A DNA stretch of 33,360 bases, from positions 1 through 33,360 of IMG/VR virus record IMGVR_UViG_3300007511_000077. The stretch is one strand, 5' to 3'. Shown piece after piece: positions 1-27,287 of this stretch. Positions within the stretch are counted from its first letter, which is position 1; each line of letters opens with the position of its first letter. The DNA comes from a virus. The notes under the pieces are model-generated. The model had not been told where the DNA came from and made no database searches. It worked only from the letters and a program-made list of their open reading frames with translations. The position numbers were made by a program, and so were the translations under genes.

Positions 1-2430
1 AATGTCACCTTTTCTGTCGGTTTCTGTGTTTGAGTTATCAACTTCTGATGTTGGAGTATAGTCTCCAGAAAGATCAACAATCGCAAACGTATCTGCTCTT
101 TTTTCACAAGTTGAAATCATATGATCCTGTGCAGTTGCACCGTTTGAATCTCCTGTTATTCCTGGCATCGAAATCATATTCATTTCAATTTCTTCAGGGT
201 CAGATACAACATCGACAGCCATTTTAATGGAGTTCATCGCATAACTTGTTAACTCAGTTTTTCCAGTTGAAAGTGCTCTCGTGTTATTAAATGGTTCTTT
301 TTCTTGGATATTAAGTCCATCAAAACCACCAATAAGCGGCATCGTAAACTTGTTAAATCCATTATCAAGAATGGTTTTGTAGCCATTACTTCCAGTTGCT
401 GTCATTGAAGAACCGGTTGAAAATTTGGTTGTTCCTCCATCGACATTTGAACCCTGATATGAGCCGGATAACCAAACTGCGATAGTTCCGCTACCATGAT
501 TTTTTCCACTTCCAGTTAAGCAAAGGTCATCTAATGTAAACAGGAATGAATATTCAAGCCCGCCACCAGCGTTCGAGTTTGCCTTTTGGCCCTTCTTACC
601 TGTAGGAGCCGTCACATCGCTTGACACACCATCTTGTGAGGAAATTGCGCTTGGAAATGCTCTCACAAGATCGACATATGATTCGTCAAATCTTCCAAAA
701 TCATCGGGTCGTCCAGTTGCGGCTCCAAAATAAGCGTCTTGAGGACTGTTTAAGTTTCCTTGACTTGAACTATCTCGTACATTAACTGATGGGAAATAAA
801 TCGATGCAGTAAACCACATTGAATCACTATAAAGAGCTTGTGGAATACCGCTCGCCATCTCATTTCCCATATAAATGGGATTTCGGAAGACATCATATCC
901 ATATTCAATAAATACGTTTCTATTCAGAGTTACGGATGAGTGATCGCCGCCAGTCTCATTGGTACTTTGAGTTAATGGAGCTGCTCCACTAAAAAGTGAC
1001 ATTCCCCGCCATCGTACAGGTCCATAAAATCCAAACGGCAAAAATGCAGCGTTTGTTTGTCCATCGTCAACTTGGGAGTTCATGTCCACTCGAATATATT
1101 TAGAGTTTGCAGGATAGTTTCCTTCGTATCGATAACGTCGTTCAGTATCATCCCAAACAACTCTCTGATCTCCAATTTTACGAGGAAGATAGTTCATTGA
1201 ATTTGGATTTAAATCACAAAGAGTAAACTGTTCAACAATCGAAGGTGCTTCATCAGTATCTCTTGCAAGACGAACTTGAACCGTAAATGTCCCATATTCC
1301 TCAAATTGATTTGTTGGCCCTTTAATATCTGCAATAGAAATCTTTAAGTTTTGTGCTTCCCAAGCACCAGCATTATGAGTTATAAATCTGAAAAGCTTTT
1401 GTTGTTCAGTTGCTTGATAGCTTCCGGTTGCCCCTAAGCTTTGTGCAATTGTCCAACCAGTTTGTGCATTTGAAACACTTCTAAGTTGTTGATTTTGGAT
1501 AACAGCATCACTTGATCCAGAAGATAAGGGGGCAATAAATCCATAATAAGTGTCGGTATCAATATACTTATCTTTCATATTTTCGAAAGATTCGCCCAAA
1601 ACATAAGTTTTTCGAGTAGCGGAAGTGTTAATATTGCCGTCAGTTAAAGTTGGGTTGGTATTAAATGCCCGACGAATAAAGTTTTTGCTTGTTCTGTTAA
1701 AGTTAAATAAAACTGTTTCTTTGATAACTCCAGTATTAGAATCATTATTTAATGTAGGTCCAACTGCGCCAGTTGTTGCACCAGCACCGATAATATTTGC
1801 TTTTAAGTTTCCATTTGAGTCAGTTCGAATCGGAGTAACGCTGCCAGAGAAAAGATTACCAGCAAAAGTTTTGCCCGCAAGCTCTACAGAGCCAGTATAA
1901 CAATAAAAAATAGCTGCCAAAGCTCCAGTCATTGCGGTGCTGCCGCTGTCTGCCCATGATGCGGTGGCTGCTGCAACCGCAGTATTCTTTACAACTCCCG
2001 ATGGTATCAAGAAAAGACCGTAAGCACCGCCAGCACCTTGTGTGCTTGGTGCTGAACCAATCTGCCAACCAGCTGCGCCAGCAGCTTGAGTTGAACCAGC
2101 ATTTGAATGTGCTTTTCCAAGAAGACGAACATAGGTGATTGGAGAACTGCTTCTTAAATAAGCTTGTGCCGCATATGTGCCATATGCTGGGGATAAACTA
2201 TCGGGGCCATCACGCCAAGGATCTTGTCCTGAATTGCCAGCAACGGGCATTCCAAAAATCTCAACAAACTCAGACATCGAATCCACTTTAACGGCTCGAA
2301 GACCTGGGCCACGACTCGCACGACCGATGATAACTGGCCCCACTTCTGATGGTACTGCTGGTAATTGGGAGTTATCAATTTCTGCAATTTTAACTCCGGG
2401 GGATACAAATCTAAACTTGCTGATGGGCAT
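1..2430 (-). CDS. 18: Tail sheath protein, T4 gp18-like (C-terminus cut off by window edge)
   Basis: Contractile tail sheath subunit that polymerises around the tail tube and contracts at infection. The reading frame opens at an ATG with a good Shine-Dalgarno (AAGGAGA) and stays open for 810 codons to base 1, so the C-terminal end is missing. The N-terminus (MPISKFRFVSPGVKIAEID) is the classic T4-type sheath start with its SPGV element. Further in are a GGFDGLNI segment near residue 700 and, near residue 775, the conserved CEKRADTFAIVDLSGD stretch of the sheath core. The middle is Ser/Thr/Gly-rich and already makes the protein longer than T4 gp18 (659 residues), suggesting extra surface domains. 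It follows the gp15-like gene after an 83-nt gap holding a candidate late promoter. The tail tube gene (gp19) would be expected next, outside the window. Confidence 0.93.
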   Translation of the reverse strand, partial: MPISKFRFVSPGVKIAEIDNSQLPAVPSEVGPVIIGRASRGPGLRAVKVDSMSEFVEIFGMPVAGNSGQDPWRDGPDSLSPAYGTYAAQAYLRSSSPITYVRLLGKAHSNAGSTQAAGAAGWQIGSAPSTQGAGGAYGLFLIPSGVVKNTAVAAATASWADSGSTAMTGALAAIFYCYTGSVELAGKTFAGNLFSGSVTPIRTDSNGNLKANIIGAGATTGAVGPTLNNDSNTGVIKETVLFNFNRTSKNFIRRAFNTNPTLTDGNINTSATRKTYVLGESFENMKDKYIDTDTYYGFIAPLSSGSSDAVIQNQQLRSVSNAQTGWTIAQSLGATGSYQATEQQKLFRFITHNAGAWEAQNLKISIADIKGPTNQFEEYGTFTVQVRLARDTDEAPSIVEQFTLCDLNPNSMNYLPRKIGDQRVVWDDTERRYRYEGNYPANSKYIRVDMNSQVDDGQTNAAFLPFGFYGPVRWRGMSLFSGAAPLTQSTNETGGDHSSVTLNRNVFIEYGYDVFRNPIYMGNEMASGIPQALYSDSMWFTASIYFPSVNVRDSSSQGNLNSPQDAYFGAATGRPDDFGRFDESYVDLVRAFPSAISSQDGVSSDVTAPTGKKGQKANSNAGGGLEYSFLFTLDDLCLTGSGKNHGSGTIAVWLSGSYQGSNVDGGTTKFSTGSSMTATGSNGYKTILDNGFNKFTMPLIGGFDGLNIQEKEPFNNTRALSTGKTELTSYAMNSIKMAVDVVSDPEEIEMNMISMPGITGDSNGATAQDHMISTCEKRADTFAIVDLSGDYTPTSEVDNSNTETDRKGDI

Positions 2431-2474
2431 TTATACGTTCTCCTTAATAGAAACTAACACTTTTAAAGTCTTTA

Positions 2475-2483
2475 ATAAATAGT
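2475..2483 (-). promoter_or_regulatory. Candidate late promoter motif before tail sheath
   Basis: Coding-strand ACTATTTAT, one of the recurring intergenic copies in this window. It lies 44 nt upstream of the sheath ATG in an 83-nt gap. Function is inferred from recurrence and position only. Confidence 0.5.
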
Positions 2484-2513
2484 ATCTTATGCCTCAAAAA
2501 GACATGCGAAACC

Positions 2514-3410
2514 TTAACTCGGCAATTTTCCATGAATCCAGGGCAAATCATCTTCAAAAATAGCCCTTTCGCGAGGAGTATTTACATCAATCGCATTTTC
2601 TCTAATAACGATTTCTGGTGTCTCTTGGTTTTTATCTCCGCCAACTAAATGCCCCATAACCTTAAGTTGCACGTTTGTTTGAAAGATTCTGCTTTCTTCT
2701 CCCAGTTCCGTTACATTGTTGTTTTCTGCAAAATCTTGCTGAATAAACAACTCATATTGATGTTTGTCTCTCTCTATCACTTCGTAGTTTATTCCTCCAG
2801 TTTTTGTAATAAATGGCTGAATAATTTGATTGATCTGTTGTTGATATTCTGTTCTCACTTCAATCGTATATGAAACATCAATATACACCGGCATTGGAAT
2901 TGATATTAGCTCATAAACTACTTTTTTACCTGGATCTTTTCTTGGAAAGTTTATTCTGGCTGGTCCAGCACCAACTATTTTATTATATTTTCTTGCTGAA
3001 TATGCATTCTTAAAACCAGCTGTTTTATCTTGCTGGATTCTTCTTGCTATTTCGATTGATCCTCCCTTATAATAACCATTAACAGGATCTGCACTTTTCG
3101 GATCAATATTCCCATAAAACATTCCCTTTCGTGTTGGGTCTTTAACTATTCCATCTCTCTTTAATGTTATCATTGGGAAAATCAATGCACCGCCACCATC
3201 TCTTAAGTCTTTATTAGATTTAATCTGGTGAGATCGTTCGCCTGCAACCCAAAGAACTGGGACTTTTTTGAACCCTTTATTTGTTTCGCAAAAAATATCC
3301 ATTTGATCGTTAAGCCAGTCATACACAGCATAATCTATGGTTTCTATTGTGGAAGCCTTAAAGGGAACAACGGTTCTTTTGGTATCCAGTTTTTTATTAT
3401 CACTTGCCAT
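2514..3410 (-). CDS. 15: Tail completion / sheath terminator protein, T4 gp15-like
   Basis: Probably caps the completed tail and joins it to the neck. The 298-residue product is close to T4 gp15 (272). Matching features, in the same order as in gp15, are a KVPVLWVAGER segment near residue 50 (gp15 has IRVPITYASKE), a YELISIPMPVYIDVSYTIEV stretch near residue 190 (gp15: MIYELSIFTRYEDDM), then QQINQIIQPF (gp15: QIVEQILPYFQPHF) and a final beta region ending in QLKVMGHLVGG. The frame stays open further upstream, but the ATG at 3410 has an AAGGA ribosome site and overlaps the preceding gene by only 11 nt, so I chose it. It sits between gp14-like and sheath genes, as gp15 does relative to gp14 in T4. 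The homology was judged by eye. Confidence 0.72.
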   Translation of the reverse strand: MASDNKKLDTKRTVVPFKASTIETIDYAVYDWLNDQMDIFCETNKGFKKVPVLWVAGERSHQIKSNKDLRDGGGALIFPMITLKRDGIVKDPTRKGMFYGNIDPKSADPVNGYYKGGSIEIARRIQQDKTAGFKNAYSARKYNKIVGAGPARINFPRKDPGKKVVYELISIPMPVYIDVSYTIEVRTEYQQQINQIIQPFITKTGGINYEVIERDKHQYELFIQQDFAENNNVTELGEESRIFQTNVQLKVMGHLVGGDKNQETPEIVIRENAIDVNTPRERAIFEDDLPWIHGKLPS

Positions 3411-3891
3411 CAAATAATCCTTCTCGTGCGCGGTGACATTTAGCCGAAATCTCAATTTTATGTTGTGTTCTGCCAAATATTTCTTTTGGTTCGCTTAAAG
3501 TAAGTATCTCGTAATGGTTGGAGCCATATAATATAAAATCACCTTCACGAACAAACAAATCTTGATCTTCTGTTAATCTTCGCTTATGAAAGTGAATCGT
3601 AATAGTTGCCAACATATCAAGGCCGAAAGAGCTTTGAGCTGTTGTTTCATGTGTTTCATGTGCAACAAGAGCATAAACACGAATTGGGGGCAACCAAGTT
3701 TTTCTTATAGCTTCCCCATATAAAGGATGAAAGTTGGTATGTTCTATGCTTATTGGGTAATAAATGATGGTTTGTCCAATGACTTTTTCGATCAACTCAT
3801 CATTTACTTGTTTAACAAGATCTCTTTCTTTTTGCCCAAGAAAAAGGGGTGGTGGTGGAGCACTTGGTTGATTCCATTTATTATCTGCCAT
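3400..3891 (-). CDS. 14: Neck protein, T4 gp14-like
   Basis: Probable neck or head-completion protein, 163 residues, shorter than T4 gp14 (256). The C-terminal half has the pattern GDFILYGSNHYEILTLSEP followed by a segment ending AREGLFD. It resembles the [20 protein letters not shown] region of T4 gp14, a compact beta domain with a Tyr/Glu-Ile core. The N-terminus is proline-rich (PSAPPPPLFLGQ). It lies between gp13-like and gp15-like genes, matching the T4 order 13-14-15, which is the main support. The stop overlaps the start of the next gene by 11 nt, so the two are probably translationally coupled. An AAAGGA sequence lies unusually close to the ATG. Confidence 0.6.
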   Translation of the reverse strand: MADNKWNQPSAPPPPLFLGQKERDLVKQVNDELIEKVIGQTIIYYPISIEHTNFHPLYGEAIRKTWLPPIRVYALVAHETHETTAQSSFGLDMLATITIHFHKRRLTEDQDLFVREGDFILYGSNHYEILTLSEPKEIFGRTQHKIEISAKCHRAREGLFDGK

Positions 3892-17529: not shown

Positions 17530-18390
17530 TTATTTTTTGTTCGTTAACCTTTTTATGAGCTTAATCTCATCTTCGGTTAAGGAAACCTTTACTTCTTCCA
17601 TGGGCGCTTTGTTGCGGTTTTTCAGCATTTTATTTAGTGCTCGTCGCCACGCTGGAATAGCGGCGCGAGCGGTTGGATCGTCTTGATCGAGTCCTCGGGC
17701 AATATCTGGATGTGGGATATCTTCAAGCTCGCCGGATGCACCTACTTGTTTACCACCTGCGGCAGTGGGATATTTGGGCCGCTCCGTGGTTTTACCAGGA
17801 AGCTTATTGCCGGGTTTGGCAGTTGGTTCGACGGTTAGTTTGGTGGCAGATGCTTGTTTTTTGGCTTTGTCGATCATCAGTTGCGCTCTTACCATAGCAT
17901 TTTTAACAGGGCCTGTGTTCGCATTAGCGATTTTGGCATAGTCAACCATAGATAAAAAAGCCTTAATAATCTCACCAAATTCGGCAGCTTGAATGCCCTG
18001 AAAAACTTTTGGATCTGAAGCCAAGTTTCTAAGGGATTTTCTCAAATCTGTACCAGTTTTAATTTTTTCAGGAGGCATACCAAGAGCTGCTACTGCACTT
18101 GTGGCAGCGTCTGGTGGTGATGAAGAAAGCGGAGACTTTGATGGATCGTAATCCAGTTTGGTGCCACCTTGACTTTTTTTCTTTGCTATCCTCCGATCTC
18201 TTTGTGATTTTGTCTCGCCTCCTGGCTTTGGAGGATCATCCCCGACGAGCCCAAGATCGAGCGGATAGTCTTTGCGAAGATCCATTCCCTCGCCCGGATA
18301 CGGTACGTGGTCTTCAATGCGATCAGATTCATCCAAATTTTTAAATGCCTCGCTTATAAGTTCTTCCAACAGTTTTTTTGTAATTTTCAT
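17530..18390 (-). CDS. Leader-type protein before terminase, largely disordered
   Basis: 286 residues, not recognised. It begins MKITKKLLEELISEAFKNL, a strong example of the shared leader, with LISE followed by Ala as a possible gp21-type cleavage site. The body is Pro/Lys/Asp-rich and mostly disordered, with two helical parts (roughly 95-170 and the C-terminal VKVSLTEDEIKLIKRLTNKK). The DNA is noticeably GC-richer than the flanking genes. It overlaps its upstream neighbour by ATGA and ends 9 nt before the terminase start, the position gp16 takes in T4. However, it shows no helix-turn-helix that would identify it as small terminase. An internal head protein is the more natural guess. Confidence 0.68.
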   Translation of the reverse strand: MKITKKLLEELISEAFKNLDESDRIEDHVPYPGEGMDLRKDYPLDLGLVGDDPPKPGGETKSQRDRRIAKKKSQGGTKLDYDPSKSPLSSSPPDAATSAVAALGMPPEKIKTGTDLRKSLRNLASDPKVFQGIQAAEFGEIIKAFLSMVDYAKIANANTGPVKNAMVRAQLMIDKAKKQASATKLTVEPTAKPGNKLPGKTTERPKYPTAAGGKQVGASGELEDIPHPDIARGLDQDDPTARAAIPAWRRALNKMLKNRNKAPMEEVKVSLTEDEIKLIKRLTNKK

Positions 18391-19336: not shown

Positions 19337-19788
19337 CTTGCGATCTCTGCTGCTGCAAAAAATATGGCAATTGAAGTCGCTGCGCCAGCAACAAATCCAA
19401 TCGCAACCCAAAATGTATTATCAGAACCTTTTGCTAAATTTCTAAGAACCTCTATTTCTTCTTGTTGAGCATGTACAATTAAGTTATTCTTTCTTTTCTC
19501 TATTTCTAGTGCCGATTTTAATAAGTCTGTTTCTCTCTTGCAAGCAGCATTAAGCAAATCTTTTTCATATTTTGATTGAGCTTTGCAGCGTTGTTGTTGC
19601 ATTTCTTTTTCCGCTAATATTTTAGCAGTTGCAACCGGATCAAAAAGTGTTCCTGCAAATGGGGCAGAATCTCCTTTATTTAATATTGTAAACTTGCCAG
19701 TTGTGCTTGTGGTTGTTTGAGCAAACGACACAGAATAGATAAAAATATTAAGAAATAGGATTAAGCTAATCGTTTTTATGAGGGACAT
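19333..19788 (-). CDS. Exported protein with signal peptide and C-terminal membrane helix
   Basis: 151 residues. A clear Sec signal (MSLIKTISLILFLNIFIYSV, cleavage likely after SFA) is followed by GDSAPFAGTLFDPVATAKIL. That resembles a motif seen in small phage proteins encoded near lysis genes. Next comes an acidic-basic coiled region with two Cys (residues about 69 and 83), and a membrane helix near the end (NTFWVAIGFVAGAATSIAIF). A GGAG site lies 7 nt before ATG 19788. There is no lipobox, so it is not a standard outer-membrane Rz1 spanin. It overlaps the upstream coiled-coil membrane gene by 23 nt, a typical layout for lysis-associated pairs. A lysis or envelope role is inferred. Confidence 0.7.
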   Translation of the reverse strand: MSLIKTISLILFLNIFIYSVSFAQTTTSTTGKFTILNKGDSAPFAGTLFDPVATAKILAEKEMQQQRCKAQSKYEKDLLNAACKRETDLLKSALEIEKRKNNLIVHAQQEEIEVLRNLAKGSDNTFWVAIGFVAGAATSIAIFFAAAEIAR

Positions 19789-20152
19789 ATTGAACTCCAA
19801 ATTTTTCTGAAAGTTCCTTTGCTAGTGCATCAGGATCAGAATGAAATTTTTTAACAGTTTTTTTAATAATCGTTTTTTGTCTGTTGCTAATCTCTTTATT
19901 CATTTTAGCATACTCTTGCTCTATTTTTTGAGCAGCTTTTTCATATTCTTTATCGATCCGGGCTTTGGCTTCTTGTTTTTCTTTTTCTGCGTTTTCGATT
20001 GCAGCTTTTTGTTTATCATAAGATTCTTTTTGTGCATCAACGATTTTTAATAAGCTGGTGTTTTTGCTTTTTAAGACAATCGCAATGATAATGATCACTG
20101 GAATATACCAATGAGTCTTAAGGAAGGCCCATATTTTTTTAAGAACAACCAT
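19766..20152 (-). CDS. Membrane-anchored coiled-coil protein, i-spanin-like layout
   Basis: 128 residues: a short basic start, one membrane helix (WYIPVIIIIAIVLK, residues about 15-28), then about 70 residues of highly charged coiled coil (KQKAAIENAEKEKQEAKARI and following) and a short C-terminal domain (DPDALAKELSEKFGVQYVPH). An N-terminal anchor plus periplasmic coiled coil is the layout of Rz-type inner-membrane spanins. The next gene, overlapping by 23 nt, encodes an exported protein, as in Rz/Rz1 pairs, but that partner lacks a lipobox. The family is not named. The spanin idea is only architectural. Confidence 0.65.
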   Translation of the reverse strand: MVVLKKIWAFLKTHWYIPVIIIIAIVLKSKNTSLLKIVDAQKESYDKQKAAIENAEKEKQEAKARIDKEYEKAAQKIEQEYAKMNKEISNRQKTIIKKTVKKFHSDPDALAKELSEKFGVQYVPHKND

Positions 20153-20162
20153 AATGTTTTAT

Positions 20163-21005
20163 TCACCCACCTTGATATTTTTCAACCAGACCAATCACAA
20201 GACACTCTAAATTCAACGAAGAAGCACATGCGTTGCCCAACACAGCGGTCAGCGCAGTTTTTAGAACCAGTCCTTGACTGCCTTGCATTATGTTTCGAAC
20301 AAAAGGAAGCTTATATAAATCCCCGTGAATTAAAGTGGCTGCTTTCTTGAAATCACCAGCTTCTCGGCTTTCTAAAAACTCAGCTTTTTTAACTCGATAC
20401 AGATTTTTTTGTTCGGGCGTGAAATCAGAAAATTTAATCCCCGTAAGACCGGACATTTTTTTCACTTCTTTCGCACGTTGTCTTTTCCCTTTCCGGGTGT
20501 TTTCGCCAGTGCGAAAAACATCAAGAAACGCTGTCCATATCGTACTACCAATACCTTCTTCTAAAGAAGCTTTATCTAAAGCGCCTGCGTCTTTTGCTGC
20601 AAAACCAACAACCAAAATATTTTTAAGTAAATCCTGTACTAACCTTACTTGTTGGTCCGATGGAGCAGATTGTTCGATTTCATTTAATTCTCCACAAGAA
20701 CTCTTTTTAATCTTTATGACAATCTCGCCTTTCTTTAAGCGAGATTTCTCTTTTCTTCCGCGATTCTTTGAGACTGGTTCACATTGAAGGTCATCATCCT
20801 CAATTCCATTGACGTGGTGAAGTTCTTCACCTTCAGGACATTCACCATGTTCTTTGTCGTGCTTGCGTTTATCGCGCTTTCTTTTGTTGCGTTCTTCTTG
20901 TTCTTTTGAACCAGAAGGATTATGTTCTTTAGAATAATCACGCGGGGTCTTGGAATCTTTATTCCATTTGCGTTCAGAAATAACTTTTATAATTTTAATC
21001 TTCAT
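20163..21005 (-). CDS. Protein with degenerate HNH-like motif and unknown C-terminal domain
   Basis: 280 residues from ATG 21005, which overlaps the upstream stop by 11 nt. A start four codons earlier is equally possible. Residues 20-85 are very basic (EERNKRKRDKRKHDKEHG) followed by GEELHHVNGIEDDDLQCEPV, then SKNRGRKEK. The HHVNG, a downstream acidic turn and an SKNR end match the core of phage HNH endonuclease-like domains (HH-x-x-G-N/D...), but the final metal-binding His is not evident. Residues about 110-275 are helical with a hydrophobic segment (LLKNILVVGFAAKDAGAL) and end in GQ-rich helices, with no recognised family. It lies among small head or lysis genes. It may be a structural use of the HNH fold or a homing-type remnant. 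Confidence 0.6.
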   Translation of the reverse strand: MKIKIIKVISERKWNKDSKTPRDYSKEHNPSGSKEQEERNKRKRDKRKHDKEHGECPEGEELHHVNGIEDDDLQCEPVSKNRGRKEKSRLKKGEIVIKIKKSSCGELNEIEQSAPSDQQVRLVQDLLKNILVVGFAAKDAGALDKASLEEGIGSTIWTAFLDVFRTGENTRKGKRQRAKEVKKMSGLTGIKFSDFTPEQKNLYRVKKAEFLESREAGDFKKAATLIHGDLYKLPFVRNIMQGSQGLVLKTALTAVLGNACASSLNLECLVIGLVEKYQGG

Positions 21006-21318
21006 CGCTGGGTTCATCGCCTGACAGCCCGCCCTTTCGAACTCGCTGAAGATGTCGTTTATATTTTTCAGTTTTAGACAAAGTTGTGCCCGCCACTTTT
21101 GCATCAATAGTGCAAATGGCTGCTGCTGCGCCTTCTTTGTCGGTTCCTGGTCTTGGATCTACTGTATCTTCCACCTTCTCTATACAACCGCTAAGAGTTT
21201 CACCGGCTTGTTTTTTAGACTGTGATGCACTAAAATGTTCCGGCTTTTTCTTTTCTTGAAGTTCAGATTCAAGTTCTTCGCTAATAATTTGCCGCAATTT
21301 TGAAATGGAAAGTTTCAT
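20995..21318 (-). CDS. Leader-type small protein
   Basis: 107 residues, unknown family. It starts MKLSISKLRQIISEELESEL, matching the shared leader with an I-S-E-E site about 15 residues in. After a hydrophilic linker (QEKKKPEHFSASQSKKQAGE), a short two-Cys segment (LSGCIEKVEDTVDPRP and AAAAICTIDAKVAG) may form a small fold, ending in a basic then acidic tail. An AAGGT ribosome site precedes the ATG, with a 3-nt gap to the upstream gene. It lies in a row with another leader-type protein (21322-21531). A head-internal protein delivered with the DNA is the working guess. Confidence 0.68.
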   Translation of the reverse strand: MKLSISKLRQIISEELESELQEKKKPEHFSASQSKKQAGETLSGCIEKVEDTVDPRPGTDKEGAAAAICTIDAKVAGTTLSKTEKYKRHLQRVRKGGLSGDEPSDED

Positions 21319-21321
21319 GCT

Positions 21322-21531
21322 TTACCTTTTATTTTTTCGTTCTTCTTCTTCTTGTTTGCATAACTGTTGCTCAATATAAGAAAGACTTTCATCGTCGCAA
21401 GAGGGGCTAACTGTCGGGCTCGGATGCGGCCCGCCCGGAATCGACGGTGTTCCAACGGGCGCGATTTCCTTAACAACCTTATCAAATTCTTCTTGAATAA
21501 TTTCTTGTAGTTTTGATTTTGTAATTTTCAT
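21322..21531 (-). CDS. Leader-type very small protein
   Basis: 69 residues. It begins MKITKSKLQEIIQEEFDKVV, the clearest example of the shared leader, followed by a Gly/Pro-rich stretch (VGTPSIPGGPHPSPTVSPSC) and a short acidic-to-basic helix with a second Cys. ATG 21531 overlaps the upstream stop as ATGA. The frame is open further upstream but only through the preceding gene. If cleaved after I-Q-E it would leave a peptide of about 55 residues. No known family. Confidence 0.68.
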   Translation of the reverse strand: MKITKSKLQEIIQEEFDKVVKEIAPVGTPSIPGGPHPSPTVSPSCDDESLSYIEQQLCKQEEEERKNKR

Positions 21532-21719
21532 TTTTTTCCATTGTGCTTCCACGCTGTTGCAATGTCGGCAACTCCTTGTATTCCAATATAACCGAGAGAT
21601 ACGGCAACCCATTGATCACCACTTAATTGCCCTAAATATAAAAAAGCGGTAGCGAGCGCGAAAACTGTAAATTTTCGCGACACTACCTTAGATAACGCTT
21701 TATCAACTATTGCTTTCAA
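21528..21719 (-). CDS. Small membrane protein, TTG start
   Basis: 63 residues: a basic amphipathic start (KAIVDKALSKVVSRK), a hydrophobic helix (FTVFALATAFLYLGQL), a second moderately hydrophobic stretch (QWVAVSLGYIGIQGVADIAT) and a Lys-rich tail. The start codon is TTG at 21719, overlapping the upstream TGA by 4 nt with GGGGT a few bases before; no better in-frame ATG exists. The overlap with a second small membrane gene suggests that the two act together. A holin or antiholin-like function is possible. Size and topology fit, but no family is recognised. Confidence 0.68.
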   Translation of the reverse strand: MKAIVDKALSKVVSRKFTVFALATAFLYLGQLSGDQWVAVSLGYIGIQGVADIATAWKHNGKK

Positions 21720-21943
21720 TCTTTACCCCGAAAAAGACTCAAAAGCACCACAAGTGAAAGCAGACCAACAAATCCGCTTGAACCAATGGAATTAATAAGC
21801 GCGACAACGTTTCCAACGATGCCCATTCCAAAAATGCCTGCTCCGTAAATTACCTCAACGAGAATTCCCAAAGCGAGCAAATTCATAACTAAAGTGGTAA
21901 GACCACCTATCCCTTCATTAACTTTATCTAAAATATCTTTCAT
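21716..21943 (-). CDS. Small two-helix membrane protein, holin-like
   Basis: 75 residues with two strong membrane helices (about 15-34 TTLVMNLLALGILVEVIYGA and 40-70, including a Gly/Ser-rich turn then FVGLLSLVVLLSLF) and a charged RGKD end. The size, two helices and position at the head of a late unit are holin-like, but no family was recognised and no endolysin is visible nearby. Its ribosome site (GGGAGG) and start codon lie in a perfect 10-bp hairpin, with a late-type motif positioned to start transcripts inside the hairpin's 5' arm. This predicts strict late expression, as for T4 lysozyme. Confidence 0.72.
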   Translation of the reverse strand: MKDILDKVNEGIGGLTTLVMNLLALGILVEVIYGAGIFGMGIVGNVVALINSIGSSGFVGLLSLVVLLSLFRGKD

Positions 21944-21984
21944 ATCTACGCACCTCCCGCGTAGATATAAATAGTCAGCTACGC
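21942..21984 (-). promoter_or_regulatory. RBS/start-codon hairpin with competing upstream arm
   Basis: On the coding strand ATATCTACGC (21968-21959) pairs perfectly with GCGTAGATAT (21951-21942) around a 7-nt loop GGGAGGT. The Shine-Dalgarno is therefore in the loop and the first two bases of the start codon are in the stem. A further GCGTAG at 21984-21979, ending in the TAG stop of the preceding gene, could pair with CTACGC at 21964-21959 instead. The middle arm therefore has two possible partners. Confidence 0.8.
21967..21975 (-). promoter_or_regulatory. Candidate late promoter motif overlapping the hairpin
   Basis: Coding-strand ACTATTTAT. A start site 6-8 nt downstream would fall near 21960, inside the 5' arm of the hairpin, so late transcripts would lack most of that arm. 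Confidence 0.6.
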
Positions 21985-24900
21985 AACAACATTCGCATAT
22001 CCATCTTTCTTTTCAATGCTAATAATGGAATCGGCAGTATCTTTAAGATTATCGAGGTGTGAAATAAGAATAACGGTTTTGAACACAGAAGTCGTAATAT
22101 CTAGAATCCTTACAAAGCCTTCCATACGTTCTTCGTCTAAAGCTGTTCCTGGTTCATCAAGAACAAATATCTGAGATTTTGGTAATGAAGAAATGTTTGT
22201 AAAAGCTAAACGAACTGCCATCGCCGCGATTGTTTTTTCTGCCCCACTTGCCATTTCTAATGGACTTGCGTCACGATCAGGTTGTTGAATGTAAATGTCA
22301 AGCCTATTATCCTCAGTTTCAAAATAAACTTGGAAATCAACAATATTTGCTAAAATTTTAGAAATCTCGCTATTAATTGTTGGCAAGCTTCTTTTAATAA
22401 TATCATAAGCTATTCCATTTGGATGCATACATTTTCCAAATAAATCGTATGCTTCATAATCATTACGATGTTCTTCAAGATTTACGTGTTTTTCTTCTAA
22501 GTTTTCAATGCGCTGTTCAAGATAGCCATGAGATTTATAAAGTTCTAACAAAATATTTTCACATTCTTCAAGATTAGAGTTATATATTGTAAGTTGAGCT
22601 TGTGTATTATTCTTGTCTTTAATAATTCCCTCTAAATCTTCAATAACCTCTTTGTTTTCTTCATAAAGCTTTTCTTTTCTTTGTAAGTTTGTAAGTTCAT
22701 GTTGAACAATTGATTTTTTAGATTTATAATTTTCAACAAGCAGTTCGTCAGATGGAACTTTATTCTCCAACTCCTTTTTGAGTTCTAAGAAATGATTATA
22801 TTTTTGAAGGTCGGACTCGACTTCTTCTGGTTCTAAGTCTGAAATCTCGTCTTTTAATGAATCCAAAACCTTATTATTATTTTCGATTGAAAGCTGAAGG
22901 GGTGAGATTGATTCTTTTGCATTATAGGCGTGACGAATAAATTTACAATGAGAAAACTCTGATCCACAAGGAACAACGTCCAAAAGCTTAACTTGCGATT
23001 GTTTTCTCTGTAACTCTAAACTATCATATTTTATTTCTTCCAACAGATTTTCTAGTTCTTTTTTGTTGTGGACAATCTGTGCTTGTTTTTCATTTAAAGA
23101 TTCACCATCAAAAGTTTTCAAAAATTCATTTGCTTTTTTGATTTTGTTTTTATTTTTTTCATTATTTTCTTCTTGTTCCGCGATTTGTTTTTCATAAGTT
23201 AATAGCTTTTGTCTGTTCTTTGAGACACAATCGCGAACGCCAACAATATCTATAATTTCAGTCGGAGCAGATTTTATTTTATTTTGTAAGTCGTTAATTT
23301 TTTCATGAGCGATTCTAATATCTCCCTTCAAACATTCGCACTTGTTTTTTCTTTTAAGGGTGTTTATTTCATTTTCGAATAGCTCTTTTTTGCATTTTTT
23401 TAATTCTGTTTCATAATCAATATTTTCCAAAAGCTTAATTTTTGCCTTTAGTTCTGCGGCATCATCTTTAGCATTTTTAAATTTTTTATCAAAAAGTTCA
23501 AGATCGAGAAACTTTGCAAGAATTTCTTTTCGTTTCGTTGAGCCCTCATTAATAAAAGCTAAAGAACCAAGCTGAGAGGACATAGAGGTTAAAAGAAAGT
23601 CATCAATTGTTCCAAAATATTTAATAATGTTTTTGTCTGTATCTGCTCTTGTTAATCCATTCAGCGATGTTCTTTTTTCAGTTACAAGATCAAAGCAATC
23701 AAAATCAACAGTTGTTTTTGCTTCAATGGTTTCATTACCTTTTAACTTCTTAAGATATTTTTCCATACGCCTTTTTATTGTATAAACTTTGGTTCCACGC
23801 TTGATCTTAACTCGACCAGAACCTTCAGTCTTATCGTTGTTGATTATGTTGATGTTCTTACGGGAATTCTTTGAAATTGAGTTATACATTGTAAACAAAA
23901 GCGAGTCAATGATACTTGACTTGCCAGAAAAGTTCTTCCCAAAAATACCAGTAATTCCAGTAAAATTTGTAAAGTTAATGCGATTGCCTTTGCCATAATT
24001 AAATAAGTTATCCCATTCAAGTTCAAGGATTTCAAAATCTATATTACGGTATGTTTCATCTGTTTCTTCAACAATTTGTTTATATCTTCTATTGAGTTCC
24101 ATGATCCGCTTTTCCAAATCTTTATTGATTTTATAATCTTCTACGTACTCGCGAATTAATTTTTCTTGAACGGCAATATCTCTTAAGTTTTCTTTTTGAA
24201 AGTTATCTTTAAGTTCAACATTATTTGTAAATGTTGCTTTATTGATTACGGAAATAGACTCTGGCTTGAATTTCTTTTTTGTAACATCGACCGCTTTTTT
24301 AAGAGCTATTACTGATAAACTATGTTCAACTACTAAACGCAATCGAGCACCTTCGGGAATTTGAGTTTCTGGTACTTTTCCTTTATCTGTCAACAAAATT
24401 GATATAAACGGTTTTGGGCTTGTATATAAAAACGGTTTACAAGTAAACTTTTTTTTATCTTTAATATCCCAAAGCAAAAATCCTTTACAAGTTGATTCAC
24501 CAAAGTTTTGTTGGACGGTTGAGCCAGCATAGCGAATACGGCCAGCCTTGTCTAATCTTTGATTTTCTAAATGAATATCGCCAAGCATAGCATAATCAAA
24601 ATCTTTAAATATTGAAATATCATGCTCGCCATGCTCCATTTTCCATCCAATATCTGTTGTGCATCCTGTAATAGATCCGTGATAAAGTGCGATATTTGTT
24701 TTAGATTTATCGGTTGGTTTGGTCCAATTATCAGTATCAAATACTGAAAGGACGTTTAGTGCAAAGTCATCATTAAGAATTGTTTCACCAGAGTTTTTTA
24801 ATAGATGCAGATTTTTATGATCCAACGCATCAATAATCGGAGTAATAGAATCTTGACGATTTCCATTCCTTAAGTTGCCGTCATGGTTTCCCAATATAAT

Positions 24901-25122
24901 GTATGTTGGCGCAATCTCGGCCAAATTATAAAAAAATTTAGAGGCCATTTCCACATATTCGGGTGAAATTTGAGTTTTAGTATGACAAATATCGCCACAA
25001 TGAATAATATAATCTACTTGCTCTTGTTTAAGAGTTTCATAGATTTTATTAAAAACTGTTCGATATTCTGTGTGATATTTAAGATTGCGGATATGAGTAT
25101 CTGCAATATGAGCAAATTTCAT
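21979..25122 (-). CDS. Fused Mre11-like nuclease and Rad50-like ATPase (T4 gp47 + gp46 in one chain)
   Basis: Recombination and end-processing machine acting on phage DNA ends. Residues 1-240 form a calcineurin-like phosphoesterase with the Mre11 motifs: IADTHI (Asp8, His10), HCGDICH (Asp44), LGNHDG (Asn79, His80), LYHG (His148) and LGDIHL (Asp182, His184). Residues 241-365 are a linker or capping region with a helix. The Rad50/SMC half starts near 365, with Walker A FGKNFSGKSS (394-403), a Q-loop region near TSMSSQLGSL, and a long coiled coil centred on a Cys719/Cys726 hook. It ends with signature LEMASGAEKT (near 955), Walker B FVLDEPGTALDE (986-997) and a terminal ILISH switch. In T4 these are two genes (339 and 560 residues), and 1047 fits their sum plus linker. 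It is driven by a sigma70-like promoter and probably has a leaderless mRNA. Confidence 0.93.
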   Translation of the reverse strand: MKFAHIADTHIRNLKYHTEYRTVFNKIYETLKQEQVDYIIHCGDICHTKTQISPEYVEMASKFFYNLAEIAPTYIILGNHDGNLRNGNRQDSITPIIDALDHKNLHLLKNSGETILNDDFALNVLSVFDTDNWTKPTDKSKTNIALYHGSITGCTTDIGWKMEHGEHDISIFKDFDYAMLGDIHLENQRLDKAGRIRYAGSTVQQNFGESTCKGFLLWDIKDKKKFTCKPFLYTSPKPFISILLTDKGKVPETQIPEGARLRLVVEHSLSVIALKKAVDVTKKKFKPESISVINKATFTNNVELKDNFQKENLRDIAVQEKLIREYVEDYKINKDLEKRIMELNRRYKQIVEETDETYRNIDFEILELEWDNLFNYGKGNRINFTNFTGITGIFGKNFSGKSSIIDSLLFTMYNSISKNSRKNINIINNDKTEGSGRVKIKRGTKVYTIKRRMEKYLKKLKGNETIEAKTTVDFDCFDLVTEKRTSLNGLTRADTDKNIIKYFGTIDDFLLTSMSSQLGSLAFINEGSTKRKEILAKFLDLELFDKKFKNAKDDAAELKAKIKLLENIDYETELKKCKKELFENEINTLKRKNKCECLKGDIRIAHEKINDLQNKIKSAPTEIIDIVGVRDCVSKNRQKLLTYEKQIAEQEENNEKNKNKIKKANEFLKTFDGESLNEKQAQIVHNKKELENLLEEIKYDSLELQRKQSQVKLLDVVPCGSEFSHCKFIRHAYNAKESISPLQLSIENNNKVLDSLKDEISDLEPEEVESDLQKYNHFLELKKELENKVPSDELLVENYKSKKSIVQHELTNLQRKEKLYEENKEVIEDLEGIIKDKNNTQAQLTIYNSNLEECENILLELYKSHGYLEQRIENLEEKHVNLEEHRNDYEAYDLFGKCMHPNGIAYDIIKRSLPTINSEISKILANIVDFQVYFETEDNRLDIYIQQPDRDASPLEMASGAEKTIAAMAVRLAFTNISSLPKSQIFVLDEPGTALDEERMEGFVRILDITTSVFKTVILISHLDNLKDTADSIISIEKKDGYANVVA

Positions 25123-25130
25123 CTAATAGT

Positions 25131-25158
25131 ATTATATCAGATTGAGGATAGAAGTCAA
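25131..25158 (-). promoter_or_regulatory. Sigma70-type promoter for the Mre11-Rad50 gene
   Basis: Coding strand TTGACT (25158-25153), 16-nt spacer, TATAAT (25136-25131), with an extended -10 TG one base before. Only 8 nt separate the -10 box from the ATG at 25122 and no Shine-Dalgarno is present, so the transcript should be leaderless or nearly so. Confidence 0.82.
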
Positions 25159-25171
25159 GAGAAAAATTTTT

Positions 25172-25579
25172 TTAGGTAAAATCTTCATCATAACCAGAGG
25201 ATACGTTTTGTGAATGGTTCCTAATGAGCTTGAGAACACTCTCATCTTCGGTAGACTTATTAAGTTTCATATATACTTCTTCTAATGCACCGTAGATACC
25301 TCTTAACCCCTTGAGATATTCTTCTTGGGCTGTTTCAATGAGTGGCTTCACTCTTTCATCAGTGGTGATTTTAAGTATTTCTTCAAATCCCTCCAAAGCA
25401 ATACTGATATTTGTTTTCGCTTTTTCTATATTTTCTTCTCTATGACCGCGAGCAAGCTTCGTACCAAATTCTGGATCTGCTTCCGGCGCGAACCTCGTCA
25501 CCTCGGCGACGGGCTGTTCTGAAATATTTTCCAGTTCCTCTTTAATCAATTTTTGTAATTGTGATTTTGTAAGTTTCAT
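25172..25579 (-). CDS. Leader-type helical protein
   Basis: 135 residues, unknown family. It begins MKLTKSQLQKLIKEELENIS, the shared leader, followed by a short linker (EQPVAEVTRFAPEADPEF). An all-helical domain follows (ENIEKAKTNISIALEGFEEI, then AQEEYLKGLRGIYGALEEVY), ending in an acidic tail. The ribosome site AAGGAG and the first codons lie in one copy of a 69-bp direct repeat, the other copy of which covers the start of the upstream oxygenase gene. This suggests that this gene originally followed the primase directly. It is separated from the oxygenase by 58 nt with a late-type motif. Confidence 0.72.
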   Translation of the reverse strand: MKLTKSQLQKLIKEELENISEQPVAEVTRFAPEADPEFGTKLARGHREENIEKAKTNISIALEGFEEILKITTDERVKPLIETAQEEYLKGLRGIYGALEEVYMKLNKSTEDESVLKLIRNHSQNVSSGYDEDFT

Positions 25580-25633
25580 CCTTTCTCCTTAAAACGAAAG
25601 TTTCTCCCATAAATAGTTGTCTAAAGAAACAAA
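25565..25633. repeat. 69-bp direct repeat, copy A
   Basis: Matches 26352-26420 at 66 of 69 positions by eye. On the coding strand it runs from the 3' end of an upstream reading frame (the SLDNYLWEKLSF-like tail, here non-genic) through the ATTTAT motif and ribosome site into the first codons MKLTK of the 25172-25579 gene. Confidence 0.9.
25609..25617 (-). promoter_or_regulatory. Candidate late promoter motif within repeat copy A
   Basis: Coding-strand ACTATTTAT, preceded by GACA, 29 nt before the ATG at 25579. It is the intact version of the motif; copy B has ATTATTTAT. Confidence 0.5.
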
Positions 25634-25637
25634 GGCG

Positions 25638-26366
25638 TCAAAAACATCGAGATGCTTTTTCTTTATTATAATCTGTTCTTGACTTAAACAATGCATTAAA
25701 TGCAACACTCCTGCGTTCTGTTTCCTTTTGCCCTTCTGCACAACGATATGGATAAACCGCATGTTGTTGGTGGGCTCCAAAAATATAAAAATCTCCTGCT
25801 TCTGGTGGACAGACTATTTGCGGCTGAGAAAACTCTAAATCTCTTGAGGCATTCCCCGTAAACACAATAGATCCATCCATCTGATCTGTTTTGTGTGTTT
25901 TCCTTGAGGGCAACATTTCGGGAACTTTGAGATACATTACTGATGAAACTTGACATTCAGTATGAATATGAATAGGATTATACTCATTTGGATATTGAGA
26001 CACAACCCACATTGGCATTATTTGAATCAGCCATTCTTCCTTTTGTACTTCCTCTATAAAATTTGGCACTTGTTGACACTTACACATCATAACAAATTGA
26101 CGAACCGCAGCCAAATAGAATCTCATCACTCCTGTTTCTTCTAAAATAATAGGGTTAATCAACAATTCAGTATCAATTTCTCCTGCGAGTTTATGTCCGT
26201 AAGATTCAGTATTTTCGTCCGCAATAATATTATCAGTAATTTCAATCATCGTTTGAAGAACTTCTGGTGGTAATTTCGTTTTTATGACAGGAGTTGACCA
26301 CGGCTGCAACACAGTTAGTGGCATTTCAAATTTTTTATTTTCCATCTGTTCTTTTGTAAGTTTCAT
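25638..26366 (-). CDS. 2OG-Fe(II) oxygenase family protein
   Basis: 242 residues with the double-stranded beta-helix pattern of the phage 2OG-FeII_Oxy_5-type family. The region NPIHIHTECQVSSVMYLKVP (residues 131-149) supplies the metal His135 and Glu137, DGSIVFTG follows, PPEAGDFYIFGAHQQHAVYP gives the distal His202, and RRSVAFNALF gives the 2OG-binding Arg219. These enzymes hydroxylate or demethylate an unknown substrate using 2-oxoglutarate, Fe(II) and O2, and are frequent in marine myophages. It starts MKLTKEQMENKKFEM, only the first five residues of which match the leader of the next gene, because its start lies in the direct repeat. It is framed by the two 69-bp repeats, suggesting insertion between primase and the 25172 gene. 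Confidence 0.85.
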   Translation of the reverse strand: MKLTKEQMENKKFEMPLTVLQPWSTPVIKTKLPPEVLQTMIEITDNIIADENTESYGHKLAGEIDTELLINPIILEETGVMRFYLAAVRQFVMMCKCQQVPNFIEEVQKEEWLIQIMPMWVVSQYPNEYNPIHIHTECQVSSVMYLKVPEMLPSRKTHKTDQMDGSIVFTGNASRDLEFSQPQIVCPPEAGDFYIFGAHQQHAVYPYRCAEGQKETERRSVAFNALFKSRTDYNKEKASRCF

Positions 26367-26420
26367 CTTTTCTCCTTAAAACGAAAGTTTCTCCAATAAA
26401 TAATTGTCTAAAGAAACAAA
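26352..26420. repeat. 69-bp direct repeat, copy B
   Basis: Covers the last codons of the primase gene (SLDNYLLEKLSF), the short gap with an ATTATTTAT motif, the AAGGAG site and the first five codons (MKLTK) of the oxygenase. It differs from copy A (25565-25633) at three positions. The two copies start 787 bp apart. Confidence 0.9.
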
Positions 26421-27287
26421 AAAGGCAGCTTCCTTGCGAGTTTGGAACGTTTCCTTATCCATCTCTCCAATGTCTCCAAAATCCGAAGTATCCATCCTGT
26501 AACAATCCACGCCATATGATAGTAAAAGTTTGATTATTTTGTCTTCTTTTGCTCTCGCATCCGAATCCAGTGCAATATATATCTTATCACAGTTGTCTAC
26601 AATCTTTTGAAAAATATAGCTATTTTCACGCAACGTAGAGCCTAATAGTGGAATAGCATTGTGGGCAACGATTGCATCAAAGACGCCTTCAACAATTGTG
26701 ATATCTTTGTCCCAATCTAAATAGAGTTCATTAAAGATAAAATCTTTTTCTGCCGGTGGATTGCAATATTTTTGCCATTCGCCCGATGTATATGAGCGAG
26801 CAATAAAATAGTTTAAGTTTCCTTTCATATCAAATGAAGGAATAATAATTCTCTGTTTATAATCTCCATCTGGGCAATATCCTATTTTCCACCAAACAAG
26901 ATCATCTCTTTCCAATCCGCGAGATTTAAGATATTGTCGAACCGGAATTGATAAGGGATTTATTTCTTTGCCTGTTAAAGATATAAACTCTTTTGGAAGA
27001 GAAACATCAAGTATTTCCTTTTCATTGTCAACTTCAGAAAAATCAACAACTCCAACAAGAGATTTCCATTGTTGTTTATGTTCCGATTTTCCATAAGAAT
27101 AAACAAGTCGTCCAATATCTTTTCCAAGATAATCACAAACCCAGCACTTAAAAACATTTTTGTCAAAGTTAACTGAAAGTTTAGCTTTATGGTGCTTGCA
27201 TTTTGGACAGTAAAAAAGATGCTCGTCTTTTACTTTATAATAAGAACCAAGAAAGTCTTTTATGATCCTAAGTTTTCTTTCAGACAT
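26376..27287 (-). CDS. 61: DNA primase, DnaG/T4 gp61-like
   Basis: Makes RNA primers at the phage replication fork. The 303 residues hold an N-terminal CHC2-type zinc site with Cys27-Pro-Lys-Cys30 (YCPKCKHH) and Cys48/Cys51 (FKCWVCDYLG). A RNA polymerase-like core follows, then a TOPRIM domain with Glu200 in DITIVEGVFDAIVAHN and the Asp241-x-Asp243 pair in IYIALDSDARAKED. T4 gp61 is 342 residues, so the length fits. The C-terminal tail (FFVSLDNYLLEKLSF) lies in the direct repeat and may have been reshaped by it. It overlaps the RuvC-like gene by 28 nt. Confidence 0.9.
   Translation of the reverse strand: MSERKLRIIKDFLGSYYKVKDEHLFYCPKCKHHKAKLSVNFDKNVFKCWVCDYLGKDIGRLVYSYGKSEHKQQWKSLVGVVDFSEVDNEKEILDVSLPKEFISLTGKEINPLSIPVRQYLKSRGLERDDLVWWKIGYCPDGDYKQRIIIPSFDMKGNLNYFIARSYTSGEWQKYCNPPAEKDFIFNELYLDWDKDITIVEGVFDAIVAHNAIPLLGSTLRENSYIFQKIVDNCDKIYIALDSDARAKEDKIIKLLLSYGVDCYRMDTSDFGDIGEMDKETFQTRKEAAFFVSLDNYLLEKLSF
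26396..26404 (-). promoter_or_regulatory. Variant late-type motif within repeat copy B
   Basis: Coding-strand ATTATTTAT, one base off the consensus, 29 nt before the oxygenase ATG. It overlaps the primase stop region. Confidence 0.35.

Follow-up and report, generated by a model that had tools for sequence, protein, structure and literature searches.

In bacteriophage T4, the start sites of genes e, soc, 49 and I-TevI are hidden in RNA helices (PMC3014915). For gene e, long early RNAs cut lysozyme synthesis about 100-fold, and the RNAs made from the late promoter are without the 5' strand of the helix (PMC3014915). Late transcripts of I-TevI are also known to lack part of the stem (PMC3014915, PMC2988022), and the hairpins of mobE (phage Aeh1) and segB are similar to the T4 leaders (PMC2988022). 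The scheme is documented in T4 and its close relatives, and T4-type phages without the structure or without gene e are listed (PMC3014915).

Here we analysed a window of 33,360 nucleotides, the whole stretch of viral DNA under study, in which a lysis-type cassette likely begins with a timing switch that acts in cis and is of the kind known from T4 gene e. Such a switch had been suggested by the initial annotation; its core is well supported in silico, but it is not universal among relatives with the same gene order. The phages concerned are uncultured and T4-like, and they are distant from T4. When cultured phages were searched for near-identical DNA and for related proteins, nothing matched the window DNA or the 75-residue protein of the cassette, and only distant relatives of Rad50 and terminase came up. 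In the proposed early phase, RNA from the sigma70 promoter of an Mre11-Rad50 gene would run into the gene of the 75-residue protein, and a hairpin would close over the Shine-Dalgarno sequence and start codon, so that the small membrane proteins would not be made. In the late phase, a gp55-type RNA polymerase would start at ACTATTTAT. Because this promoter overlaps the hairpin foot, the late RNA would begin inside the 5' arm, lack the full stem and be translated, and the second, holin-like gene would follow through translational coupling.

Gene order and the hairpin at the translation start

The fused Mre11-Rad50 (SbcD/SbcC-like) gene (21979..25122, minus strand; phrog_77 and phrog_100) lies directly upstream of the 75-residue protein gene, with a gap of 35 nt. 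It is preceded by a sigma70-type promoter, TTGACT-16-TATAAT (25131..25158, minus strand), an 11/12 match with an extended -10 element (TG), and comparable promoters precede Rad50 in L012, L015, L016 and L020. The promoter placed here by the initial annotation is a strong match that is conserved in several relatives. With an upstream early promoter and no convincing terminator in the 35-nt gap, the arrangement points to read-through into the cassette, as a T4 gene e-type switch would need. We note that within 25122-25158 the end of the -10 box and the Mre11-Rad50 ATG are 8 nt apart and that a Shine-Dalgarno sequence is absent, so the early RNA of this gene is probably leaderless or nearly so. 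The start of Rad50 looks like that of the window (short gap, no Shine-Dalgarno sequence) in L012, L015, L016, L020, L009 and L065.

The first gene of the cassette encodes a small hydrophobic protein of 75 residues (21716..21943, minus strand), an open reading frame conserved in relatives. The protein has no Pfam or PHROG match and is thus not a T4-type lysozyme homologue. Its size, hydrophobicity and position agree with its earlier description as holin-like, a label that we keep at that level, as no family match backs it. The second gene (21528..21719, minus strand) encodes a holin-like membrane protein of 63 residues, which has homologues and weak matches to PHROG holins (E 0.15-0.24). This gene starts at a TTG that shares bases with the TGA stop of the first gene (TTGA), and the overlap suggests that its translation is probably coupled to that of the 75-residue protein. 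Homologues of the 63-residue protein occur both at the Rad50 loci and in lysis-type cassettes located apart from them, and a further search yielded 80 loci, including some on contigs that were already part of the analysis. Further downstream in the cassette lies an Rz-like spanin candidate (19766..20152, minus strand; phrog_312, E=3e-4), and a similar small membrane protein is found at the same place in two more distant loci, L220 and L183. The cassette proteins thus far have a putative lysis function.

Also in the window, several unrelated small proteins (17530-18390, 20995-21318, 21322-21612 and 25172-25579) have a common N-terminus like MKxTKxxLxxIIxEE, and many more proteins starting MKLLxENWRxYLxE are found in contig G001. 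The common N-terminus is possibly a signal of the capsid-targeting type.

The start of the 75-residue protein gene lies in a predicted RNA hairpin (21942..21968, minus strand), which reads ATATCTACGC-GGGAGGT-GCGTAGATAT from 21968 to 21942. The 5' arm ATATCTACGC spans 21968-21959, the loop GGGAGGT 21958-21952, and the 3' arm GCGTAGATAT 21951-21942. The stem contains 10 perfect pairs, and, when G-U pairs are counted, 14 continuous pairs around a GGAGG loop. The Shine-Dalgarno sequence GGGAGG (21953..21958, minus strand) is in the loop, and the AU of the ATG (21943-21941) falls inside the 3' arm. The perfect 10-bp stem, the ribosome site in a 7-nt loop and the closing of the first bases of the start codon are all exactly as first placed. 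In full, the order on the minus strand is GCGTAG, CTG, ACTATTTAT (21975-21967), ATCTACGC, GGGAGGT, GCGTAGAT and ATG. An Rfam search of the locus gave no match.

The fold of the 46-nt hairpin has an energy of -17.6 kcal/mol, compared with -5.4 +/- 1.9 kcal/mol for shuffled sequences (z -6.4; 0/200). We then calculated the opening cost of positions -15 to +3 in 351 called genes with a Shine-Dalgarno sequence from seven related contigs (mean 4.9, sd 2.9 kcal/mol). The window leader costs 14.7 kcal/mol in the read-through RNA and ranks second of the 351, behind only the leader of contig G008, which has the same hairpin (15.1 kcal/mol); the window stem is also among the longest over any start site. 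These calculations suggest that the start site would be sequestered by the hairpin in RNA initiated upstream, as in the T4 gene e scheme.

An inverted repeat at the end of Rad50 might instead be a transcription terminator or attenuator, and a simple scan does report a terminator-like element here, in which the 14-pair stem is followed by AGATATTTTA. However, an unbroken U run is missing, the T-rich part belongs to coding sequence, and the corresponding stem in a more distant group of leaders (clade C) precedes GCACGAAAAACTAG or a similar sequence that has no T run. We rejected this reading, which we consider very improbable, because a conserved U run is absent.

The late-promoter candidate and the predicted late RNA

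The late-promoter candidate ACTATTTAT (21967..21975, minus strand) has the group motif ACTAnTTA, and its last bases make up the foot of the 5' arm. The T4 consensus TATAAATA was rejected as a promoter in the sense direction, as it reads on the plus (opposite) strand here, so the promoter reading relies on the phage group's own motif and not on the T4 letters. Strand bias of the motif was examined in 7 contigs. The ratio of coding to opposite strand for ACTATTTAT is 8:0 in the window and 15:1, 11:1 and 8:0 in three large contigs, and ACTATTTATA gives 25:0 for the coding strand over eight records with an even distribution of the reversed pattern, although nearly all genes are on one strand and the bias by itself could mirror coding content. 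Many copies are located 2-50 nt ahead of gene starts. In G001, copies precede the genes of tail sheath, tail tube, baseplate wedge and large terminase, and a copy in the window precedes the head-tail adaptor gene. The late-type motif that had been claimed to overlap the upstream end of the hairpin is thus present, strand-specific and recurrent before late structural genes.

A T4-type late sigma factor (phrog_234) was detected in five of six related contigs (G001, G002, G003, G005 and G009) and in 0 of 14 control genomes. The gp55-like gene is known from these relatives, and none is carried by the 33-kb window fragment. This suggests that the phage group encodes a late sigma factor of the gp55 type, another component that a T4 gene e-type switch would require. 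Our literature search on the CTATTTA motif as a phage late promoter found nothing pertinent. We also observed two near-identical segments at 25580-25640 and 26367-26425, which read TTTCTTTAGACAA[C/T]TATTTAT[G/T]GGAGAAACTTTCGTTTTAAGGAGAAA, then ATGAAACTTACA. They give two adjacent proteins the same C-terminus, FVSLDNYLxEKLSF. The copies contain the late motif or a version that differs by one base, which looks like duplication of a promoter segment together with an inserted gene.

In T4, about one helical turn separates the late promoter box from the start downstream of it (PMC2988020). When the motif is set in register on the T4 box, the late start falls at about 21962, and we take 21960..21962 (minus strand) as the expected start range from T4 spacing and opening costs. 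A start at this spacing would remove most of the 5' arm. The initial annotation had proposed folding both transcripts, and we modelled late RNAs that begin at the 4th or 6th base after the 10-base motif. The calculated opening cost of the window leader falls from 14.7 kcal/mol in the read-through RNA to 6.4 (start at 21962) or 3.7 kcal/mol (start at 21960). Related leaders behave similarly, with 10.5 falling to 5.5/2.3 in L059, 13.6 to 4.9/4.5 in L063, and 17.1 to 5.4/2.7 kcal/mol in L010. At 15 C, the window values are 19.4, 9.8 and 6.3 kcal/mol for read-through and starts at 21962 and 21960, respectively. A start at 21962 would leave a remnant stem of 4-5 bp, and since the cost varies with start position, the openness of the late RNA would depend on the exact start. 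A calibration on leaderless starts, using the distances between motif and ATG, gave no sharp peak.

Conservation of the stem and similar leaders in other phages

A search with the 75-residue protein returned seven related loci, and an alignment search added a second clade (clade B, 63-65% identity). Clade A comprises four distinct leaders, represented by the window together with L009, by L010, by L059-L062, and by L063, and the stem is kept in all four. The arms are paired in 43 of 44 cells, and changes are found on both sides at 4 of 11 pairs. The covariation score (0.561 vs 0.323) is reached by 1 of 500 shuffles and is lost when the arms are slid against each other; it comes from only four sequences, and the shuffles take no account of relatedness. 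Covariation of the stem had been named at the outset as a check, and across the four versions the pairing is kept by compensatory changes.

Part of the stem could arise by chance complementarity between the end of the promoter (TATA) and the start region (TATG), in which case it would have no regulatory role. Three pairs at the foot are indeed set by motif and ATG and are uninformative, and many related leaders are without a stem. However, the informative changes sit in the spacer and covary, and the opening cost is at the top of the 351 genes, so a chance origin appears distinctly unlikely. Palindromes that overlap a promoter are typical operators, and the palindrome here overlaps the promoter candidate, so it could serve a repressor protein as an operator, in DNA or RNA, and not act as an RNA switch by itself. 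T4 also has RNA-binding repressors that act at start sites (PMC3014915). Against this, the letters of the arms change jointly with pairing (including G-U) kept, a pattern more in line with RNA pairing than with an invariant site for a protein, and several different stems occur. We regard an operator as highly unlikely and favor a self-acting RNA switch.

The stem is not found in all relatives, which the initial annotation had named as a finding that would count against the switch. It is kept with compensation in clade A, but elsewhere a motif of the ACTAnTTAT form stands behind Rad50 with no stem. This applies to L064 and L065, which are 79-82% identical across the C-terminal part of Rad50, to the first clade-B gene and to many loci that are more distant. 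In L065, a TATAAT-type promoter is still present before Rad50. As the stem is absent in relatives with the same gene order, the switch would be a trait of certain lineages.

A search found 499 stretches that encode relatives of the C-terminus of Rad50. The clade-C cassette is separated from Rad50 by variable genes, and the main clade-C stem ATATCTACAG/CTGTAGATAT resembles the window stem and covaries in part. For 37 distinct clade-C leaders, 70.8% of cells are paired and the covariation score is above all 500 shuffles; the pairing is much eroded in about half of the leaders. L220 and L183 were the few relevant ones among the matches listed in an independent, unselective pattern scan. Both contain the same motif and an 11-pair stem directly before a holin-like gene, the upstream gene is not Rad50, and the Rz-like-resembling small membrane protein downstream of the holin-like gene is followed by similar later genes. 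In L220, the variable region on the upstream side of the cassette is occupied by a run of small KPGDLV-type proteins (1788-3786).

These loci bear on another reading, in which the hairpin, with or without a third arm, mainly couples translation of the 75-residue protein to ribosomes finishing Rad50 and not to promoter choice. The Rad50 stop and the 5' arm are 10 nt apart, and the hexamer GCGTAG (21979..21984, minus strand), which contains the stop TAG (21981-21979), is complementary to 21964-21959 and can pair with CTACGC. This hexamer had been proposed as a competing third arm. Its letters encode Ala-stop codons, however, and the four clade-A versions contain no double change and two broken cells, with the pairing broken in L010. 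It finds no support as a functional element, and we left it out of the mechanism. Moreover, clade C and L220 keep motif and hairpin together behind unrelated genes and at other stop distances, so what is kept is the motif-hairpin overlap and not the adjacency to Rad50. Ribosome coupling as the main role is unlikely, and we retain the promoter-dependent switch as the preferred reading.

In clade B, the second, holin-like gene has a stem that would hide the Shine-Dalgarno sequence, and the motif lies between the two arms. In L066-L071, the 5' arm gtttctctcctt lies in the end of the first gene and pairs with the Shine-Dalgarno region, and ACTATTTA is between the arms. The first cassette gene of clade B (L066 3614-3640 and like loci) reads ACTATTTATAAGGAGGTGATATATTATG, in which the motif directly adjoins a very long Shine-Dalgarno match; with T4 spacing, a late start would shorten this match. 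A separate case was noted in G001 at sense position 98465, where a 112-residue protein gene is preceded by the motif and the opening cost falls from 10.7 to 1.1 kcal/mol in the late-start RNA.

When 69 distinct cassette leaders were compared with 39 other motif-preceded genes, the cassette leaders had a higher opening cost (p 5e-9 on z-scores, 2e-11 on energies), but the leaders are related, and the z-score excess was gone after clustering (p 0.27 and 0.47). A general hairpin excess at all lysis-type leaders was dropped on this ground. The clusters that stand out after clustering are the window/clade-C type, the L220/L318 type and L063, and we claim the switch for these few lineages only. It is conceivable, though we hold it somewhat less probable than its opposite, that late promoter and stem form a timing module that travels with the lysis-type cassette irrespective of the upstream gene, and that it is rebuilt with different sequences in separate lineages of uncultured T4-like phages whose late promoter is altered (at the second gene in clade B).

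Comparison with known systems

As in T4 gene e, a long early RNA is predicted to fold over the start site here, and a late promoter is predicted immediately upstream, both read from the window sequence. The T4 gene e leader blocks early synthesis of a lysis protein, whereas the window gene encodes a small holin-like membrane protein and not a lysozyme. The window also differs from gene e in its motif, which is ACTAnTTA and not TATAAATA, in the location of the Shine-Dalgarno sequence in the apical loop with the AUG in the stem, and in the fused Mre11-Rad50 gene upstream. When the motif is aligned to positions -13 to -6 of the T4 box, it reads A-C-T-A-n-T-T-A. The late consensus of Aeh1 has a/gC at -13/-12 (PMC2988020), which is common to Aeh1 and ACTAnTTA; in our alignment of the two boxes, position -9 is variable and -8 is T, not A as in the Aeh1-type box. 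ACTAnTTA may be a testable late-promoter motif for a large group of uncultured phages.

T4 soc, gene 49, I-TevI, mobE and segB share with the window gene, for which it is predicted, the arrangement of a late gene within early or middle transcripts and a stem that sequesters the Shine-Dalgarno sequence. They are other genes, and several of them have transcript or mutant evidence, whereas the evidence for the window is comparative. A compensated hairpin at holin-like genes of distant uncultured phages suggests that hiding the start site in early RNA may be a wider solution to premature lysis.
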